Part shown: in pieces, positions 2,067-17,714 of the stretch
Layout of the letters: each line of letters begins with the position of its first letter
Position numbering within the stretch: the first letter of the stretch is position 1
IMG/VR virus record: IMGVR_UViG_3300034407_002180
Coordinates: 1 to 25,109 of that record
DNA length: 25,109 nt
Origin: a virus
Reading direction: 5' to 3' (one strand)
Notes under the pieces: generated by a model
Told to the model about the DNA's origin: nothing
Seen by the model: only the letters and a program-made list of their open reading frames with translations
Database searches by the model: none
Position numbers and translations under genes: made by a program

Positions 2067-4643
2067 ATGGCAGAAACATTAATTTCCCCAGGAGTATTAG
2101 CAAGAGAGAACGATCAGTCTCAAATAACTTCTCAACCCATTCAAGCAGGAGCTGCTTTAGTAGGTCCTACAGTAAAAGGTCAAGTTGGTATACCAAAGCT
2201 TATAACTACCTATAGTGAGTATCAAGCAACATTTGGTACTACTTTTGACAGTGGTTCGGATGAATACACATTTTTAACTTCGATTTCAGCTTATAACTAC
2301 TTCCAAAATGGAGGTAATACTTTGCTAGTAACAAGAGTTGCTTCTGGAAACTTTACAGCAGCAGATTCTTCAGTAATATACAACGACCAAGAAAGCGGTG
2401 CTGTAGTTACTGGAACTAATTTATTAGGTTCTTTTACTAGTGGAGGAGAAGGAGGTACTGCCGGTACTTTTACTGGTGAAGCAACTACCACTTCCGGTGG
2501 AGGTACAGGAATTACTTTAGATGTTACAACTTCAAATTCAAATGGAAAATTAGTAGTAACAGCTGATGATTTACTTTCAGAAATAACAACCAACCCAGTA
2601 AATGCAGGAGCTGCTACTTATACAGGAGTTGCTTTAACGGGTGGTACTGGAACAGGTGCTGTAGCTACAGTAGTAGTAACAGGAACAACTGCTCCAACTA
2701 TAACAGGTATAACAGTTACATCAACTGGATCAGGATTTATAGCAACAGATGTTTTAGCAATAGCAGCTGGAGCTTTAGGAACAGGACAATTAATAACTGG
2801 AGATGACATTTTATCAGAAACAGCAGCAACCGCAATCGGAAACGTTACAGGTCCCTTTACAGTAGCTCAAACCTCTACTTCAGGTGTAGGTGCAGGAGCA
2901 ACACTTACCATAACAGGTGATGGTGCAAATGCTTTATCAGCAGTAGCCGTAGCATCAATTGGTACTGGGTACGTTTTAAATGATACAATTACAATCACCT
3001 CAGCAGATTTAATAACAGCAGGGTTTACAGGCGCAACTGCAGATTTAGTAGTAACAGTTTCAGCTGCAATGTTACAAAATTCAACAGCAGCAGCTATTAC
3101 ATTAGTTTCAACAAACCTATTTATTGAACCAACAGCAATTTCAACAGTGGGTGTAGGTGCCGGATACGCAGTAGGTGATACACTTACAGTAGCATTAACT
3201 GATATAGGAAGCCCATCAGCAGATTTAGTATTAACTTTAGTTGATGCCGATATTGTAGATGCAAATGCTTTTACATTAGAAACAATTGGACAAGGTATTA
3301 TTATGAATAGTACAGGAGCTGAAAATTCTCAAGGTGCTTTAACAAATGGAACATCAGATAACCTCAGATGGGAAATTTCATCACCAGATACAGGTTCAGG
3401 TACATTTAGTGTAATTATAAGACAAGGTAATGATACAACAAGAGCAAAATCAGTTGTTGAATCATTTAATAATGTGTCATTAGATCCTAAAGCATCAAAT
3501 TACATATCTAGAATAATTGGTGATCAAACACAAGTATTAAGAGGAGCTGGAACAGCTGATCCATATTTACAAACATCTGGATCTTATCCAAATGCTTCAA
3601 GGTACGTAAGAGTAAAATCAGTAGCATATAAAACACCAGATTATTTTGATAATAGTGGAAATGCAAAAAGTCAATATACAGCATCAATCCCAGTTGCAGC
3701 ATCCGGTACATTTGGAGATGCATTAGGAACAATTTTAACAGGAACTGGAAAGTACTATGAAAATATTGATGGTAGTGATTCACAAGGGTTAGTAGGTACT
3801 GATTACACAGATACATTTAACTTATTAGCAAATAAAGATGATTATAGATATAACCTTATATCAGCACCTGGTTTATACCAATCAGATTACAGTTCAGTAT
3901 TGAATACCTTAGTAGCAAATACAGAAAATAGAGGAGACAATATTGTAATTTTAGATCTTGAAGCTTATGATTCATCAATTACGGCCGCTGTAGGAACAGC
4001 TGCAAGTAAAGATTCATCATATGCCGCTTCATATTGGCCTTGGTGTATGGTTACAGATCCAGATTCAGGACAAAGAGTTTGGGTTCCAGGTGGAACTTTA
4101 ATACCAGGAGTTTATGCTGCAAATGATAGAACAGCAGAAGCATGGTTTGCACCAGCAGGTATTAATAGAGGTGGATTAGGTCAAGTAGTTCAAGCAGAAA
4201 GAAAATTAACTCAAGCTAACAGAGATTCATTATATCAAGGTAAAGTTAATCCAATCGCAACCTTCCCAGGAAGAGGAGTAGTAGTATTTGGACAGAAAAC
4301 ATTACAAACACAAGCAAGTGCTTTAGATAGAGTAAATGTTAGAAGATTGCTAATTTCACTTAAAAACTATATTTCACAAGTAGCAGATAATTTAGTATTC
4401 GAACAAAACACAGCAGCAACAAGAAACATATTCTTAGCTAACGTCAACCCATATTTAGAATCAGTACAACAAAGACAAGGTTTATACGCGTTTAAAGTTG
4501 TTATGAATGAGTCAAACAATGGTCCCGACGTAGTTGATAGAAATGAATTGAGAGGTGCTATATACGTTCAACCAACAAAAACAGCAGAATTTGTTTACCT
4601 AGATTTCAACATTCTCCCAACAGGAGCTGAATTCCCGGCATAA
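2067..4643 (+). CDS. gp18: Tail sheath protein (gp18-like)
   Basis: The contractile sheath subunit that polymerises around the tail tube and shortens on infection. It has 858 residues against 659 in T4 gp18. The N-terminus (SPGVLARENDQS, then GPTVKGQVG and FGTTF) and the C-terminal third (residues about 640-858: W.PGG..PGVYA..DR, GG.GQV, NPIATFPGRGVVVFGQKT, INVRR-type VNVRRLLISLKNYI, YVQPTKTAEFVYLDFNI) match the phage sheath family. Extra length comes from a Gly/Ala/Thr-rich insertion at about residues 120-405, with three GxGY/F...D.(L/I)(T/A) repeats. The insertion probably forms surface domains on the outside of the sheath. It is preceded by a candidate promoter and followed directly by the tube gene, the normal T4-like order. 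Confidence 0.95.
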   Translation: MAETLISPGVLARENDQSQITSQPIQAGAALVGPTVKGQVGIPKLITTYSEYQATFGTTFDSGSDEYTFLTSISAYNYFQNGGNTLLVTRVASGNFTAADSSVIYNDQESGAVVTGTNLLGSFTSGGEGGTAGTFTGEATTTSGGGTGITLDVTTSNSNGKLVVTADDLLSEITTNPVNAGAATYTGVALTGGTGTGAVATVVVTGTTAPTITGITVTSTGSGFIATDVLAIAAGALGTGQLITGDDILSETAATAIGNVTGPFTVAQTSTSGVGAGATLTITGDGANALSAVAVASIGTGYVLNDTITITSADLITAGFTGATADLVVTVSAAMLQNSTAAAITLVSTNLFIEPTAISTVGVGAGYAVGDTLTVALTDIGSPSADLVLTLVDADIVDANAFTLETIGQGIIMNSTGAENSQGALTNGTSDNLRWEISSPDTGSGTFSVIIRQGNDTTRAKSVVESFNNVSLDPKASNYISRIIGDQTQVLRGAGTADPYLQTSGSYPNASRYVRVKSVAYKTPDYFDNSGNAKSQYTASIPVAASGTFGDALGTILTGTGKYYENIDGSDSQGLVGTDYTDTFNLLANKDDYRYNLISAPGLYQSDYSSVLNTLVANTENRGDNIVILDLEAYDSSITAAVGTAASKDSSYAASYWPWCMVTDPDSGQRVWVPGGTLIPGVYAANDRTAEAWFAPAGINRGGLGQVVQAERKLTQANRDSLYQGKVNPIATFPGRGVVVFGQKTLQTQASALDRVNVRRLLISLKNYISQVADNLVFEQNTAATRNIFLANVNPYLESVQQRQGLYAFKVVMNESNNGPDVVDRNELRGAIYVQPTKTAEFVYLDFNILPTGAEFPA
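2727..3194 (+). repeat. Three GxGY...D repeats in the sheath insertion
   Basis: Units begin at 2727 (GSGFIATDVLAI), 2961 (GTGYVLNDTITI) and 3156 (GAGYAVGDTLTV). Spacings of 234 and 195 bases indicate repeated small beta domains of about 65-78 residues, each closing with a similar turn and strand. All three are in the sheath reading frame. Confidence 0.7.
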
Positions 4644-4696: not shown

Positions 4697-5185
4697 ATGG
4701 CAGTATTAGATCCAAACGAAATATTTTTCACAGCATTTGAACCAAAACAAGCAAATAGGTTTATAATGTATGTAGACGGGATTCCATCATATATCATTAA
4801 AGGTATAAGTGGATTAGGTTTCTCACAAGATGAAATTAAATTGAACCACATTAACACCTACCGTAAAGTAAAAGGTAAGTTAGCATGGAACGATATCACA
4901 ATGCAATTGTTTGATCCTATCACCCCATCTGGAGCACAAGCTGTAATGGAGTGGGTACGTTTGCATCATGAATCTGTAACAGGTAGAGATGGATATAGTG
5001 ATTTCTATAAAAAAGATTTAACTATTGACGTATTAGGTCCTGTAGGTGATGTAGTATCAGAATGGATTATTAAAGGAGCATTTATTAAAGATGCATCGTT
5101 CGCTGATATGAACTGGGATACCGATAACGAAGCCCAGAATATCGATTTAACAATCGGAATGGATTATTGTGTTTTAAATTTCTAA
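4697..5185 (+). CDS. gp19: Tail tube protein (gp19-like)
   Basis: A 162-residue protein matching T4 gp19 in length (163) and family (phage T4 gp19-type tail tube). It forms stacked hexameric rings inside the sheath, through which DNA passes. Recognisable parts are the N-terminal DPNEIFFTAFEPKQANRF.(M/V)YVDGIP, the TYRKVKGKLAWNDI strand, the EWVRLHHESVTGRDGYSDFY helix and the C-terminal half LTIDVLGPVGDVVSEW..KGAF. There is no insertion or truncation. The gene is bracketed by a candidate promoter and a strong terminator hairpin, which would allow high separate expression. Confidence 0.95.
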   Translation: MAVLDPNEIFFTAFEPKQANRFIMYVDGIPSYIIKGISGLGFSQDEIKLNHINTYRKVKGKLAWNDITMQLFDPITPSGAQAVMEWVRLHHESVTGRDGYSDFYKKDLTIDVLGPVGDVVSEWIIKGAFIKDASFADMNWDTDNEAQNIDLTIGMDYCVLNF

Positions 5186-5207
5186 GAAAAAGGAAAATTA
5201 TTTTTAA

Positions 5208-5237
5208 GGAGAGCTTGGCTAACGTCAAGCTCTTTCT
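5208..5237 (+). terminator. Factor-independent terminator after the tail tube gene
   Basis: The stem AGAGCTTG (5210-5217) pairs perfectly with CAAGCTCT (5226-5233), extendable by two G-U pairs; the loop is GCTAACGT. A T-rich tract (TTTCTTAT) follows. It sits 23 bases after the tube stop codon and is the clearest terminator in the window. Confidence 0.85.
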
Positions 5238-5267
5238 TATATTCAATATGTATTACATGACAACAAA

Positions 5268-5289: not shown

Positions 5290-6090
5290 ATGAGTGAATT
5301 AAAACCAAGTGTAGAAGGTTTACAACCCCCCACAACTTTAAAAGAAGAACCAACATACAACTTTCCTGTTGAAACTGTTGAACTTCCATCTAAAGGTTTA
5401 GTATACCCTGAATCATCCCCTTTATCCGAAGGTAAGATTATTATGAAGTATATGACAGCCAAAGAAGAAGACATTATTACCAATCAAAACTACATCTCAA
5501 AAGGAACAGCTATTGATCATTTACTACAAGCCCTAATCGTAACTCCTGGAGTTAAAGAAAGTGACTTGATTGTGGGTGATAAGAATGCTATATTAATAGC
5601 AGCTAGAGTTTTAGGATATGGTGCCAATTATAAATTCGAGTATATGGGTGATACTGTTGAAGTAGACTTATCTAGTTTAGAAAATAAAGACATAGATTAC
5701 AGCTTATTAGAAGGTAGAACTAATGAGTTTGAGTTTACTCTCCCTCACACACAAACACCAATTACTTTTAGAATTTTAACTGGAAAGATTGAGCAAGCAA
5801 TTAATTCAGAATTAAAGGGTCAAGCAAAAATCAACAAAAATGCATCTAAAGAAATGTCAACAAGAATGATGTATCTTATTATGTCAGTTAATGGGGATTC
5901 AGAAAGAAAAACCGTTAGAGATTTTGTAAACAATAGTTTACTAGCTAGAGATGCTAAAGCTTTAAGAGATCACATAGCAAAATTCCAACCGGATGTAGCT
6001 ATGAAATTTGATTGGGAAGACTATGATGGCACTCTCGTTGAGAGAGAAATACCTATTACTTCAGGGTTTTTTTTCCCTGACCCCGAGTGA
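5290..6090 (+). CDS. gp26-like baseplate hub assembly protein / tail-assembly chaperone
   Basis: A 266-residue protein resembling the T4 gp26-type baseplate family found across T4-like marine phages: VELPSKGLVYP near residue 35, IIMKYMTAKEEDIIT near 57, then the KGTAIDHLLQALIV and VGDKNAILIAARVLGYG helices, and a C-terminal part with FEFTLPHTQTPITFRILTGK. Its place between the tail tube and the tape measure gene is that of the lambda G/GT-type chaperones. The last codons run through a T8 tract (6067-6074), and the stop at 6088-6090 lies inside the next frame. The two products are therefore probably a short form and a frameshifted long form (inference). It has its own candidate promoter and lies downstream of the terminator. 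Confidence 0.75.
   Translation: MSELKPSVEGLQPPTTLKEEPTYNFPVETVELPSKGLVYPESSPLSEGKIIMKYMTAKEEDIITNQNYISKGTAIDHLLQALIVTPGVKESDLIVGDKNAILIAARVLGYGANYKFEYMGDTVEVDLSSLENKDIDYSLLEGRTNEFEFTLPHTQTPITFRILTGKIEQAINSELKGQAKINKNASKEMSTRMMYLIMSVNGDSERKTVRDFVNNSLLARDAKALRDHIAKFQPDVAMKFDWEDYDGTLVEREIPITSGFFFPDPE
6061..6080 (+). promoter_or_regulatory. Candidate frameshift site: T8 run inside an inverted repeat
   Basis: TCAGGG, eight T residues and CCCTGA form a perfect 6-base inverted repeat with the homopolymer as its loop. Zero-frame codons are GGG TTT TTT TTC CCT. A +1 or -2 slip (or loss of one U in the transcript) moves reading into the frame ending at 6403; gain of one U would stop at once at TGA. 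Confidence 0.5.
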
Positions 6091-6403
6091 GGCTAGGGAT
6101 TATAGGGTAAATCTATTTTCACAAATACACGATATAATATTTCATGGTAATGGTGGATTTGATTATATGACAGTGTATAATATGCCTTTATGGCTACGAA
6201 AGTTTACATTTAATAAAATTAACGCTTACTTTGATGAGCAAAATAAAGAAAAGTCAGGAACGACGACAAATGACTTAAACGAAGCTAGAAGTATTTTACA
6301 AAAAGCTGGAAGACAGGGTGGTCCTTCACCTCAACAATCAAAAACTTCTAACCCATCCGTAAAAGTCCCTGATTTTGTTACTAGTACTAGAAAGACATCA
6401 TAA
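6062..6403 (+). CDS. Overlapping second frame: C-terminal extension of the chaperone (or gp51-like protein)
   Basis: This frame is open from an ATG at 6008, but its recognisable protein begins only after the T8 run: SLTPSEARDYRVNLFSQIHD, then the GGFDYMTVYNMPLWLRKF segment, typical of C-terminal chaperone or gp51-type domains in T4-like phages, then a polar tail ending KTS. The feature is drawn from the slippery site. Upstream residues in this frame (6008-6061) only mirror the overlapping gp26-like gene. I see no leader resembling the other starts near 6008. A +1/-2 shift would give a fusion of about 370 residues (261 + 109). If instead translated alone from 6008 it would be 131 residues. The stop codon lies inside the hairpin at 6390-6417. 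Confidence 0.6.
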   Translation, partial: QGFFSLTPSEARDYRVNLFSQIHDIIFHGNGGFDYMTVYNMPLWLRKFTFNKINAYFDEQNKEKSGTTTNDLNEARSILQKAGRQGGPSPQQSKTSNPSVKVPDFVTSTRKTS

Positions 6404-6445: not shown

Positions 6446-9400
6446 ATGGCGAATAAACGACAATTACAAGAACTTCAGAAATTACTAACAGACATAGAAA
6501 AAAAATATGCTTCTATAAGTAAGGTTTCTCCTTTCAAAGGGAAGGATGCTGCAGAAGTTGCAAAACAATTTGACTCTATAGATGATGCATTAAAGTCTGC
6601 TGAAATCTCAATGAAAGGGATTAGGGCAGAAATTCAAGATATAGACTCAGGTTTAGATGGTTTAAAGGAAAGTTTTAGAGATATTGGTAGAGAATTAGGG
6701 AATATAAATTCTCCTATGAAAGCCATGAAAAAAGACTTTAATAAACTTACAAGTCTAGCAGAAAAACTATCAGATGTTAATTATGATATTGCAAGTTCAA
6801 GTTTAAAAGAAACAGCAAATATTAGAAAACAGGTTAATTTAAGCTTTAATAGATTATCCCAAAGAAAAAAAACCCTAAAATTTCAAATAGAGAGTGGAAA
6901 GCTATCAGGTCAAGAATTATCGGATGCACAAGAATTATTAGCAATAGCTGAAGATGCTACTAAAGAATTAGAAGAAAAAGTAGGTTACCAAGATGATTTT
7001 AATTCAGCTTTAGATTCTACTGAGAAGAAACAAAGAAAAATAAATAAAGCCATGGGTATTTCCGGTGGTTTAGTTAAAGGTCTTGGAAAATTTGCTAGTA
7101 AAATAGGATTTGGAGAAATTTCATCTAATTTAGAAGATATCAATGATGATATGTCTGAAATGGCTATTAAGCTAACAGATAATGGTAGCAAAGCCGCATC
7201 TCTTGGAGATAAGTTCAAGGTTATGCGTGTTGGGTTAAAAGGGCTAGGAAAATCATTATCAAAACAACTAGCAGACCCTGCAGTTATAGGTGGTTTCTTA
7301 ATGAAAGCAGTTAAAGGGTTATATGATTTAGCAGGCCAACAAAGAAAGTTTGCAAAAGAAGCAGGCCTTGCCACTTCTGGAGCTGTTTCAAGTGAGACTT
7401 TAAGGAGGATGGAATCAGTTCATGGTATGTTTGAGGATTTAGCGGCATCAGCAAACATCTTACGAACTGAATTAGGCTTTGTTCCTGAAATGACTGAAAA
7501 AACCCTACAGGGAGTAACAGCATTAACTCATGGGTATGGTCTTGCAGGTAATGAGGCCGCAAATTTATTTAAAACAAGCTCAGAATTAGGAACAGAGTTG
7601 ATAAAAATGCCTGAAGTTGTAGCTGGGGTAGGTGGTGAGGTAGAAAATGCTACTGGATACGCCGTAGATTTCCAAAAAGCTATGAAAAATCTAGGAAGTT
7701 CTAGTGCTTCCGTTAGATTTAATATGAAAGGCCAAGCTAATGAACTTATAAAAGCAGCAAATTATGCTGCTCTTTTGGGAATGAGTATGGATGATGTTAG
7801 GAATGCAGCTGAAAGTACACTATCCTTTGAAAGTTCAATTCAAAAGGAAATGGAAGCAGAAATGTTCCTCCAAAAGAATTTAAATTTAGATAAATATAGA
7901 TATGCTGCATTAACAGGAGATGCAGCTACACAAGCCTCAGAATTACAACGTTTAATAAAAGAAAATGGACCTGCTTTAAAAGGTAATGTTTTAGCACAAA
8001 GAGCATTTGCAGACTCTATAGGAATATCTCAAGAACAACTTGCATCCTCCTTAGAATCTATGGAGTTGCAAAAAGAATTAGGTTTTGAATCTGCGGATGC
8101 CCAAAAAGCAATGGGTATTCTGATGGCTAAAGGAATGACAAAAGAACAAGCCCTTATAAAAATGAGAAAGGATGGGGCTGCTGGCGTTACTAAATCTATT
8201 AAAGATGAAGAAGCATTCCAGAATAGATTTAAAATGGCCATGAGAAAATTCCAAGAAGCCTTTGCTACTTTAGCAGATAGAATTTTTAATCCGGACAACA
8301 TGAAAAAAATCGATAAAATGATTGAAGGCATTGGCGATTTTTTAATGTCACCTATATTACAAAAAATAATAAAATACCTCCCCGAAATAGCAATTGGTTT
8401 TGGTGCTCTTTCTCTATTAAAGAAATTTAACCCTATCCAAAATGTAGGGATAATGAATGTAGCAAGAATGAATGGTGGTGGTATGGGTGGCGGCGGCGGT
8501 GGCGGCGGTGGAGGTTACCATGAAACAGGGGGTGGAAGAAGTAAAAGCAAAGGAAGATATAGAGACCCCAAAACCGGAAGATACGCAAAACGCCCAAAAG
8601 GAAGATCATCAAGACCTAGAAGAAGAAGGGGAGGAAGAGGACGAGGTCTGTTAGGACTGGCTGGTGGTTTACTAGGTTATGAATTAATGAGCAATATGTT
8701 CTCAGATTCAGAAACGGGTGAAACATCAGTAGGAGGAGACATGGCAAGTATGGCTTCTATGTCAGCTGTAGATGCTGGTGTGAGTAGTATGGGAAGTGGC
8801 GGAGCTTCCAGTAAAGCATCATCAGCATCACCAAAAAGCAAACCAAGAAGCAAACCAAGAAGCAGGCCAAGAAGCAAACCAAAAGCAGGTAAGAGTTTTC
8901 TTGGAAGTTTATGGGGTGGTATTAAAAGTATTGGTAGCAGTGTATACAGTGCTGGTAAAGGTGTATATGATATGGGTGCAAGTGCTATATCTAAAGTAAG
9001 TGATATAGGTGGATCAATAAAAAAATGGTTTGGTAAAAAGATAGGTGGTTTATTTCCTAAATTATTAAAAATGGCTAAAGGTCCTATAAAAAACATTGCA
9101 GGTAAAATACCTATTTTAGGATCAATACTTGAAATGATATTCACAGGGATGGATGTAAACTCAATTGCTCAATCAAAAGATATGTCTAAACAAGAGATGT
9201 ATGGGGAAATGGGTAGATCTGTAATAAGTGGAGGTATGGGATTGCTAGGGGGTAGTTTAGCCGCAGCTGGGGTTTCATCACTTCAAGCAATAGGAATACC
9301 AGGATGGTTACTTTCAGGGGCTGCTTATATGGGTGGTGATTACTTAGGGAGAATGTTAGGAAGTGCTATATCAGATTATGTTGGAGGTCCATCTTTAGGA

Positions 9401-9685
9401 AAAGGGATATTTAATTTATTCTATGAAGGAGGGGCAAATAAAAAAGCATCAACAGCAGGGGGCAATATGGAAAAATCACCAAAAATGATGGCTACTGGGG
9501 GAATTGTAACATCCGCAACAAACGCTATTGTAGGTGAAGCTGGAGCAGAAGCTGTAGTTCCTTTAAATGATTTTTATGCTAAATTAGATGAATTAATAGC
9601 TGTAGTAAAACAAGGAGGTGATGTGTACATGGATGGAGCTAAGGTAGGTAAATCAATGGCTATGTCAACTTCTAGATTAGGTTAA
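6446..9685 (+). CDS. Tail tape measure protein
   Basis: A 1,079-residue protein that sets tail length and leaves the tube ahead of the DNA. The N-terminal ~220 residues are helical, charged coiled coil. The middle (about 260-640) is helical, followed by a hydrophobic stretch near 642-662. Then come a Gly run (677-690), a strongly basic Arg-rich segment (696-733, with GRYRDPKTGRYAKRP) and four KPRS units (798-813). A second hydrophobic block lies near 925-965. The C-terminus carries the classic tape-measure motif GGIVT..TNAIVGEAGAEAVVPL at about 1017-1040. It follows the chaperone pair, as expected because such chaperones coat the tape measure. It is much longer than T4 gp29 (590 residues); part of the excess is the low-complexity basic region. 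It has its own candidate promoter. Confidence 0.92.
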   Translation: MANKRQLQELQKLLTDIEKKYASISKVSPFKGKDAAEVAKQFDSIDDALKSAEISMKGIRAEIQDIDSGLDGLKESFRDIGRELGNINSPMKAMKKDFNKLTSLAEKLSDVNYDIASSSLKETANIRKQVNLSFNRLSQRKKTLKFQIESGKLSGQELSDAQELLAIAEDATKELEEKVGYQDDFNSALDSTEKKQRKINKAMGISGGLVKGLGKFASKIGFGEISSNLEDINDDMSEMAIKLTDNGSKAASLGDKFKVMRVGLKGLGKSLSKQLADPAVIGGFLMKAVKGLYDLAGQQRKFAKEAGLATSGAVSSETLRRMESVHGMFEDLAASANILRTELGFVPEMTEKTLQGVTALTHGYGLAGNEAANLFKTSSELGTELIKMPEVVAGVGGEVENATGYAVDFQKAMKNLGSSSASVRFNMKGQANELIKAANYAALLGMSMDDVRNAAESTLSFESSIQKEMEAEMFLQKNLNLDKYRYAALTGDAATQASELQRLIKENGPALKGNVLAQRAFADSIGISQEQLASSLESMELQKELGFESADAQKAMGILMAKGMTKEQALIKMRKDGAAGVTKSIKDEEAFQNRFKMAMRKFQEAFATLADRIFNPDNMKKIDKMIEGIGDFLMSPILQKIIKYLPEIAIGFGALSLLKKFNPIQNVGIMNVARMNGGGMGGGGGGGGGGYHETGGGRSKSKGRYRDPKTGRYAKRPKGRSSRPRRRRGGRGRGLLGLAGGLLGYELMSNMFSDSETGETSVGGDMASMASMSAVDAGVSSMGSGGASSKASSASPKSKPRSKPRSRPRSKPKAGKSFLGSLWGGIKSIGSSVYSAGKGVYDMGASAISKVSDIGGSIKKWFGKKIGGLFPKLLKMAKGPIKNIAGKIPILGSILEMIFTGMDVNSIAQSKDMSKQEMYGEMGRSVISGGMGLLGGSLAAAGVSSLQAIGIPGWLLSGAAYMGGDYLGRMLGSAISDYVGGPSLGKGIFNLFYEGGANKKASTAGGNMEKSPKMMATGGIVTSATNAIVGEAGAEAVVPLNDFYAKLDELIAVVKQGGDVYMDGAKVGKSMAMSTSRLG
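8837..8884 (+). repeat. Four 12-base tandem repeats (KPRS units) in the tape measure gene
   Basis: Consensus AGCAAACCAAGA, four copies in frame; copy 3 has AGG for AAA and copy 4 ends AAA. It encodes Ser-Lys/Arg-Pro-Arg/Lys repeats in a positively charged linker. Simple tandem arrays like this change copy number easily. Confidence 0.85.
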
Positions 9686-16429: not shown

Positions 16430-16449
16430 TATACCAAAATAAAGGTATA
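16430..16449 (+). promoter_or_regulatory. Hairpin at the DNA polymerase start, possible translational operator
   Basis: TATACC (16430-16435) pairs with GGTATA (16444-16449) around an 8-base loop AAAATAAA; the last stem base is the A of the ATG. Upstream, TTTACC (16405-16410) and TATTAT form a plausible -35/-10 pair with about 16 bases between. A short stem with an 8-base loop at the polymerase start is the form of the T4 gp43 autoregulatory operator, but this could be chance in AT-rich DNA. Confidence 0.35.
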
Positions 16450-17714
16450 TGTTTTGGTTAGTTGAATCGAAGGAACAATTAGATAGGTTTTACAATAGTA
16501 GTTATAAAGAGGCATTTGTTGAAATAATTCCTTATAATGATAAGGTTCACCCTACCCAAAATTCCATATGTGCTGTTTATATTCGCCCGTTACAATCGAC
16601 AAAAGGATTCATTATACCCATCTCGCATAGCGAAACGTTGTCCGTGCATATAGACGATGTAAAACACATACTATCGCAATATAATAGCATATATGTTAGG
16701 GATAAAAAGGAATTTTTACATTATTTTATCTTTAAAACTCTTTATGACATAACACTCAACTCTCCTCCGTATATACAAGAGTATACACAAACACATTCCT
16801 TCTTCTACCATAAGATGGGAGAGAAAAAAGACATAAACCGCATTATTCCGATTGTAAAACACTATGAATATTGTGAGAAATTATTTAATGATTTAAAACC
16901 AAGAATAGATGAGCCAATCAACGACTTTTACAATGAAAAAACCACAGTGGTATTCAACGCCATTGAAAGAAGTGGTATACGAATTGATCGAGAGGAATTC
17001 CAATCGCGTTTTCATGATATCGATGGAGAATACGCCTACACGCAATTCAACTTCAAAACCCTTACAGGAAGACCATCAAATAGATTTAAAGGAGTAAATT
17101 ATGCAGCAATCAATAAAGACAATGGAGACCGAAAGTCTTTCATCCCACGTAATGACATTCTTCTTGAATTGGATATTAGCGCCTATCACCCTACTTTGCT
17201 TTCTCATCTGCTTGATTATGAGTTTGATAGTGGTGATATTCACATGGCCTTTGCTAAAATGTATGGGGTGGAATATGGTAAGGCGAAGGAATTAACTTTT
17301 AAGCAGATGTATGGTGGGGTATTTGATCAATATAAGGAGCTGGAGTTCTTTAAGAAGATGCAAGTATATACTGATGATTTGTGGGCTCGCTTCCAAAATG
17401 AGGGTTCAATTGAATGTCCTGTTTCAAAGCATGTGTTTAAAAAAGAAGAGCTTCATGATATGAAGCCTCAAAAACTATTGAATTATGTTCTTCAAAACTT
17501 GGAGACGGCTACTAACGTTCGTATATTATGGGAAATATTTAAAATATTAAAAGGAAGAAATACTAAGTTAGTACTTTACACATATGATTCATTCCTATTT
17601 GATTTTGATGATAGCGAAAGAGAAATAATAAGAGAAATACTAAATGTATTTAAAATAAATAAGTTACAAATAAAACACAGTTATGGAGAGACATACGATT
17701 TTACAGAATCCTAA
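16449..17714 (+). CDS. Short family A DNA polymerase, thumb-deleted
   Basis: A 421-residue protein with Pol I-type palm and fingers. Motif A is ELDISAYHP (Asp242 = E. coli Pol I Asp705). The O-helix K..(x)F...YGG has Lys280, Phe284 and Tyr288 at the exact +4/+4 spacing of Lys758, Phe762 and Tyr766. Motif C is TYDSFLFD (Asp380 = Asp882, with Tyr-Asp-Ser in place of His-Asp-Glu). TGRPSNRFKGVN (206-217) matches TGRLSS..NLQN. Between IERSGIRID (172-180) and TGR only about 25 residues remain where Pol I has about 110, so the thumb is nearly absent. The N-terminal ~130 residues look like a decayed exonuclease domain with no DxE motif. It probably serves as the replicative polymerase, since no gp43 is visible. 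Whether it is processive alone is unknown. Confidence 0.8.
   Translation: MFWLVESKEQLDRFYNSSYKEAFVEIIPYNDKVHPTQNSICAVYIRPLQSTKGFIIPISHSETLSVHIDDVKHILSQYNSIYVRDKKEFLHYFIFKTLYDITLNSPPYIQEYTQTHSFFYHKMGEKKDINRIIPIVKHYEYCEKLFNDLKPRIDEPINDFYNEKTTVVFNAIERSGIRIDREEFQSRFHDIDGEYAYTQFNFKTLTGRPSNRFKGVNYAAINKDNGDRKSFIPRNDILLELDISAYHPTLLSHLLDYEFDSGDIHMAFAKMYGVEYGKAKELTFKQMYGGVFDQYKELEFFKKMQVYTDDLWARFQNEGSIECPVSKHVFKKEELHDMKPQKLLNYVLQNLETATNVRILWEIFKILKGRNTKLVLYTYDSFLFDFDDSEREIIREILNVFKINKLQIKHSYGETYDFTES

Follow-up and report, generated by a model that had tools for sequence, protein, structure and literature searches.

The viral DNA analysed here, 25,109 nucleotides of the IMG/VR record IMGVR_UViG_3300034407_002180 (positions 1 to 25,109; the window), carries two overlapping reading frames, A and B, at positions 5290-6403 (Table 1). 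The pair is placed like the G/GT genes of long-tailed phages, between the tail tube gene and the tape measure gene, as had been read from the sequence alone. The tape measure gene is assigned by its position and length, and by Flavobacterium phage immuto, a relative in which the counterpart of this gene is annotated as tail tape measure. The A protein matches PHROG 150, the family that holds both T4 gp26 and gp51 (E=1.9e-6), and its residue F260 is invariant across 46 relatives. A Pfam search with the window's own A and B gave no match, and B alone found no PHROG in a profile search; Pfam family PF12322 (T4_baseplate) is matched by 22 of 39 relatives of A, with a best value of 5e-22.

Table 1. 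Features of the A/B locus and its neighbours in the window.
Feature	Position	Strand	Description
Tail tube (gp19-like) gene	4697-5185	+	5' of A; PHROG 4542 E=1e-23, PF06841 E=4e-6
ORF A	5290-6090	+	266 aa, T4 gp26-type; stop codon TGA 6088-6090; zero-frame product ends ...PITSGFFFPDPE followed by the stop
ORF B frame	6005-6403	+	frame +1 with respect to A, opening at about 6005; stop codon 6401-6403
ORF B, conserved part	from about 6068 only	+	putative counterpart of the T4 gp51 C-terminus
Inverted repeat TCAGGG-T8-CCCTGA	6061-6080	+	arms 6061-6066 and 6075-6080
T8 shift site	6067-6074	+	A reads TTT TTT TTC (FFF)
Probable tape measure gene	6446-9685	+	3' of A/B; 1079 aa; weak TMP_N match E=0.022

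A strong hairpin GAGCTTGGC-TAAC-GTCAAGCTC followed by TTTCTT is present between the tube gene and A (window 5211-5232). The spacer that contains it (5186-5260) has a shuffle z of -4.0 for RNA folding. The hairpin resembles a terminator or a processing signal, and could reduce the amount of chaperone mRNA relative to tube mRNA; Bacillus phage SP-15 has an annotated terminator in the equivalent place. Elsewhere in the window, a 421-aa ORF (16449-17714) shows by eye motifs like those of family-A DNA polymerases (TGRPSNRF...LELDISAYHPTLLSHL) and has no match in Pfam or PHROG. The sheath protein (2067-4643, 858 aa) features a long Gly/Thr/Ala-rich insert ahead of its conserved sheath domains.

Two sets of related loci were assembled. 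For the first, 80 IMG/VR contigs and three phage records were searched by BLAST with A and B as queries, and it comprises 84 B loci including the window; the second, gathered with a protein of Microcystis phage Mel-JY01, comprises 79. Two contigs common to both sets were taken out of the site statistics (n=83 and n=76). Wherever BLAST allowed B to be assigned, its frame relative to A is +1/-2 (84/84 and 79/79), as originally proposed, and not the usual -1, and B begins at the same Phe-Phe codons. Alignments of B by tblastn start at the T run in nearly all of the 84 loci, which bears out the view that the conserved part of B opens there. Inspection of Rhodothermus phage RM378, SP-15, Listeria phage LIS04 and Streptococcus phage GXN1 also places a B-like frame at +1. 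Differences within B follow the codon-position order 3>1>2; B is translated and evolves as a protein, since the changes fall mostly at third positions.

The codons of the shift site are under synonymous-site constraint. The first is TTT in 83/83 loci, although TTC accounts for 19% of the remaining Phe codons of A, and the second is TTT in 81 and CTT in two. The base preceding the run is T in only 12/83 loci of the first set, where codon usage predicts 50.7, and in none of the 76 of the second set, where 37 are expected. The loci share kinship, and these counts therefore describe constraint rather than independent trials. The slip site was seen in all A/B loci, with L206, L210 and L090 lacking the shared slip configuration. 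In the +1 clade, just 5' of the site, the Gly of an IPxG motif is encoded by GGG in 22/50 cases, compared to a background of about 10%, and this codon is a possible ribosome-pausing (Shine-Dalgarno-like) element.

Joining A to B requires a slip of one base forward or of two bases back, and the original prediction had allowed for both. All the site variants encountered, TTT TTT T, CTT TTT T, TTT CTT T, TTC TTT T, TTT CTA, TTT TTT C and TTC TTT C, are compatible with +1 re-pairing at one of their two Phe codons. A -2 shift of the ribosome like that of phage Mu, leading to the product ...SGFFFSLTPSEAR, would be feasible at T7/T8 sites, where tRNA-Phe can re-pair two bases back, and could also account for the T that occupies position 3 without exception in both main clades. 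It is ruled out, however, at TTC TTT TGG (14 loci, L195-L209), at TTT CTA TTC (L003, which also carries an ATG able to start B) and at TTC TTT CGT (GXN1), all of which permit +1; TTT CTT TGG, found in immuto and L080, is good for +1 and poor for -2. For the family +1 is preferred on account of the three sequences that allow it and do not allow -2, and the Mu-like shift is improbable. A +1 slip is likely in the window itself, although its sequence cannot exclude -2 on the T8 run.

Less credible is synthesis of B as a separate protein by independent or coupled initiation, in which ribosomes terminating on A, or loading internally, would start at TTG 6008, ATG 6023/6026 or a similar codon. The window does carry these candidate B-frame starts and some other loci have a possible start 5' of the site. 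Separate B proteins can exist, given that B has its own ATG immediately past the A stop in L206 and L210 and that the A/B junction of L090 is a TAATG overlap. Those three loci lack the shared slip configuration, however, and no ATG, GTG or TTG precedes the conserved B block in 35/83 loci of the first set, 27/76 of the second and 8/14 further loci. A B-frame stop lies directly ahead of the slip site in several relatives. Start positions vary while the slip site is conserved, B homology begins at the slip site and at no start codon, and T4 gp51 contains A and B in one chain. L206, L210 and L090 represent a few lineages that have split A and B into unlinked genes and have an obvious other route to B. 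Cleanly separated genes without a slippery run, named beforehand as an observation that would refute frameshifting, were thus encountered in these lineages and in T4, but only as exceptions.

Slippage of RNA polymerase on the T8 run, which would generate U7/U9 mRNAs encoding the fusion, is more doubtful still. The run lies in an AT-rich genome and T8-T9 tracts occur in a subset of relatives, but most have T7, and relatives of identical arrangement have TTTCTT or TTCTTTT. The mechanism is unlikely for the family because no run exceeds four T in immuto, L080 and L195-L209, and the codon-phased constraint points to the ribosome. A sequencing error in the T8 run, or a pseudogene split of one ancestral A-B gene, might be suspected from the homopolymer and from the continuous chain of T4 gp51, but is excluded for practical purposes by the same frame relation in well over 150 independent contigs and in the isolates immuto, Mel-JY01, SP-15, RM378 and LIS04, among which the junction runs differ in composition.

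The perfect inverted repeat reported around the T8 run is present in the window, where the RNA hairpin that spans it (6055-6090) has a folding energy of -10.7 kcal/mol. It is not a conserved feature: a perfect copy occurs in 2/83 loci of the first set and in 0/76 of the second, and the repeat is lost in L308, a near relative with 75% identity in B that keeps both the T8 run and the frame. The repeat was rejected as a required signal on these grounds. It is confined to the closest sub-clade, in which six contigs keep it, a biased count because these contigs were found by exact pattern. Conserved RNA structure downstream of the site gave no consistent signal, with mean z values of -0.78 and -0.47 compared to -0.34 and -0.18 for controls within A.

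The frames, the conserved site, the missing starts and the homologies, all established by computation, together with the synonymous constraint, support the proposal of a gp26/gp51-type tail-chaperone pair joined by frameshifting. On comparative grounds it is close to certain that the frameshift in this A/B family is real, protein and ribosome-profiling evidence being absent. The window and hundreds of relatives look as though they carry overlapping tail-assembly genes joined by a programmed ribosome slip.

The same A-B pair, with the shift at the same Phe-Phe position, is found in cyanophages such as syn9 and P-SSM7 as gp26 and a short gp51. These are annotated as two genes and, in contrast to the +1 relation of the window, their frames differ by -1 at U_UUU_UUC. 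In syn9, the T4 gp26-like gp12 precedes the T4 gp51-like gp13, whose annotated start is an internal ATG, while in pairs of this type the conserved B frame opens 5' of the annotated ATG. The relation is -1 in 81/81 cyanophage relatives at an invariant T_TTT_TTC, the A stop being located one codon further on; the TTC codon is found in all 81, compared to a background of 28%. A -1 pair is present also in KVP40, DLP6, BUCT-ZZ01, P-SSM7, Atu_ph07 and PA5oct (T_TTT_TTC in the last two) and in RAS14 (T_TTT_TTT). P-SSM7 and KVP40 have, like the window, a tube-like gene 5' of the pair. Sullivan et al. 2010 described cyanophage and vibriophage gp51 as lacking the first ~200 residues and Aeh1 as lacking gp51 (PMC3037559), and frameshifting is not mentioned in their account of the short gp51. 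In Aeh1, B is hidden after gp26 in the -1 frame at GAT TTT TTC GAC TGA, as predicted beforehand from the frameshift model. The cyanophage B is matched by 541 phage records, many of which carry it as a separate gp51 or without annotation. To judge from these genomes, the pair would be shifted +1 in the window clade and -1, with U_UUU_UUC as the slip sequence, in cyanophages and in part of the Straboviridae, at one homologous site; experimental evidence of a fusion product is lacking for all of them.

T4 is the textbook exception to the conserved tail-chaperone frameshift. The equation of A and A-B with T4 gp26 and gp51 is well supported through the profiles of the cyanophages. Their A-B fusion aligns with the gp51 family over the full length (hhalign 99.4%), their A with gp26 (98.5%) and their B with the gp51 carboxyl terminus (95.5%), and gp51 aligns with gp26 (99.7%). 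PF12322 spans residues 1-206 of gp26 but only 1-201 of the 249 residues of gp51. These matches and the PF12322 coverage lead to the inference that gp26 equals A, and gp51 equals A plus B. The single profile PHROG 150 accounts for the whole of gp51 (13-282), for gp26 (14-235) and for the A and B of cyanophages, which it finds in two frames, and the B of the syn9 short gp51 matches PHROG 634 with E=1e-31.

The link of the window clade to T4 is weaker than that of the cyanophages and passes through PHROG 150, PF12322 and SP-15, whose hhalign score with the window clade is 100%. The window clade scores 43% with the cyanophage fusion. Compared directly with T4 gp51, the window-clade fusion profile gave an hhalign value of 0.1%, and direct hmmsearch and hhalign comparisons of the window-clade profile with T4 gp26 and gp51 were not significant. 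For B of the window the link is weak, depending on one relative, L047, with a PHROG 634 match of E=0.0035, on a B-B profile comparison (W_b against C_b, hhalign 14.8%, pairwise E 4e-4) and on alignment by eye. As in the window, the T4 proteins share A (gp26, and residues 1-201 of gp51) and the B family matches the carboxyl terminus of gp51, whereas in T4 these are two separate paralogous genes with no slip site: gene 26 ends in GAG TTC TTT GAG with no B after it. T4, Aeromonas phage 31, RB43 and phiP4-3 have two copies of the A family, while the frameshift phages have one. It appears that in T4 recoding was replaced by duplication, with gp26 as the shorter product and gp51 as the longer. The two-gene tail chaperonin of phage 0305phi8-36 is a precedent for paralogous genes replacing a G/GT frameshift, though its gene names and lineage are unrelated (PMC2147016). 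A search of the open-access literature, subscription papers being outside its scope, found no report of a gp26/gp51 frameshift, in agreement with the initial impression that it is not a standard annotation.

Hub assembly chaperone is the listed role of T4 gp26 and gp51, gp51 being required and absent from the particle (PMC3004832). Comparison of the A sequence with the PDB gave nothing relevant. The structural model of A is of high confidence (pLDDT 87), and its N-terminal domain, modelled separately, has its best PDB matches in the tail assembly chaperone of HK97 (2ob9, Z 5.5, rmsd 3.5, 76 aligned) and in YqbN (3klu, Z 5.6, rmsd 4.6, 85 aligned), with 3fgx at Z 6.5. These fold matches, of which the one to HK97 is a likeness to the G/GT proteins of long-tailed phages, are weak, with non-significant Foldseek E values of 0.29-0.64. 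Lambda therefore serves as the analogy from which both the chaperone role and a G/GT-like division of labour are inferred.

The best explanation, held to be highly probable, is that A and A-B are tail-assembly chaperones, counterparts of G and GT, of a T4-superfamily myovirus and are made by frameshifting. Most ribosomes would translate A alone and terminate at its TGA (6088). The remaining minority would slip +1 on the Phe codons, the P-site tRNA-Phe moving on TTT_T from UUU to the overlapping UUU; these ribosomes would bypass the A stop and add the 109-residue B extension, yielding a 370-residue fusion (...SGFF-SLTPSEARDYR...) that has not been detected. By analogy with lambda, A is expected to cover the tape measure protein and B to recruit tail tube subunits, and both are expected to depart ahead of tail completion. 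The slip direction in the window and the slip efficiency are likewise inferred.

It is also likely, if held with somewhat less confidence, that the T4 superfamily shares the G/GT frameshift, that its direction has changed between +1 and -1 at a single homologous Phe-Phe site according to the bases flanking the UUU codons (one ahead of them, several behind), and that T4 duplicated the gene instead. If this is true, gp26 and gp51 are the G/GT chaperones of T4-like phages, produced via a +1 or -1 frameshift, or by duplication in T4. One site in related genes that is used in both directions would then be a natural experiment on the determinants of frameshift direction.

The lambda G/GT genes (Xu, Hendrix and Duda 2004, in PMC5009743) resemble the window in that two overlapping genes are flanked by those for tube and tape measure and give a short zero-frame product and a frameshift-extended one. 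The lambda shift is -1, while the window family belongs to T4_baseplate (PF12322) and shifts +1. Phage Mu (-2), HSTV-2 (+1) and Listeria phage PSA (+1) are further cases of alternative shift directions in tail or structural genes of phages, but their protein families differ from that of the window and a Mu-type -2 shift is incompatible with several window relatives. There is a mechanistic likeness to influenza PA-X (UCC_UUU_CGU) and bacterial RF2 (CUU_U), where the tRNA in the P site leaves YUU for the codon that overlaps it at +1; at the window site, unlike in these systems, there is no stop codon in the A site and no established stimulatory element. The site of phage GXN1 (L089, 3001-3760), TTC TTT CGT, shares its UUU_CGU with the +1 site of influenza PA-X.
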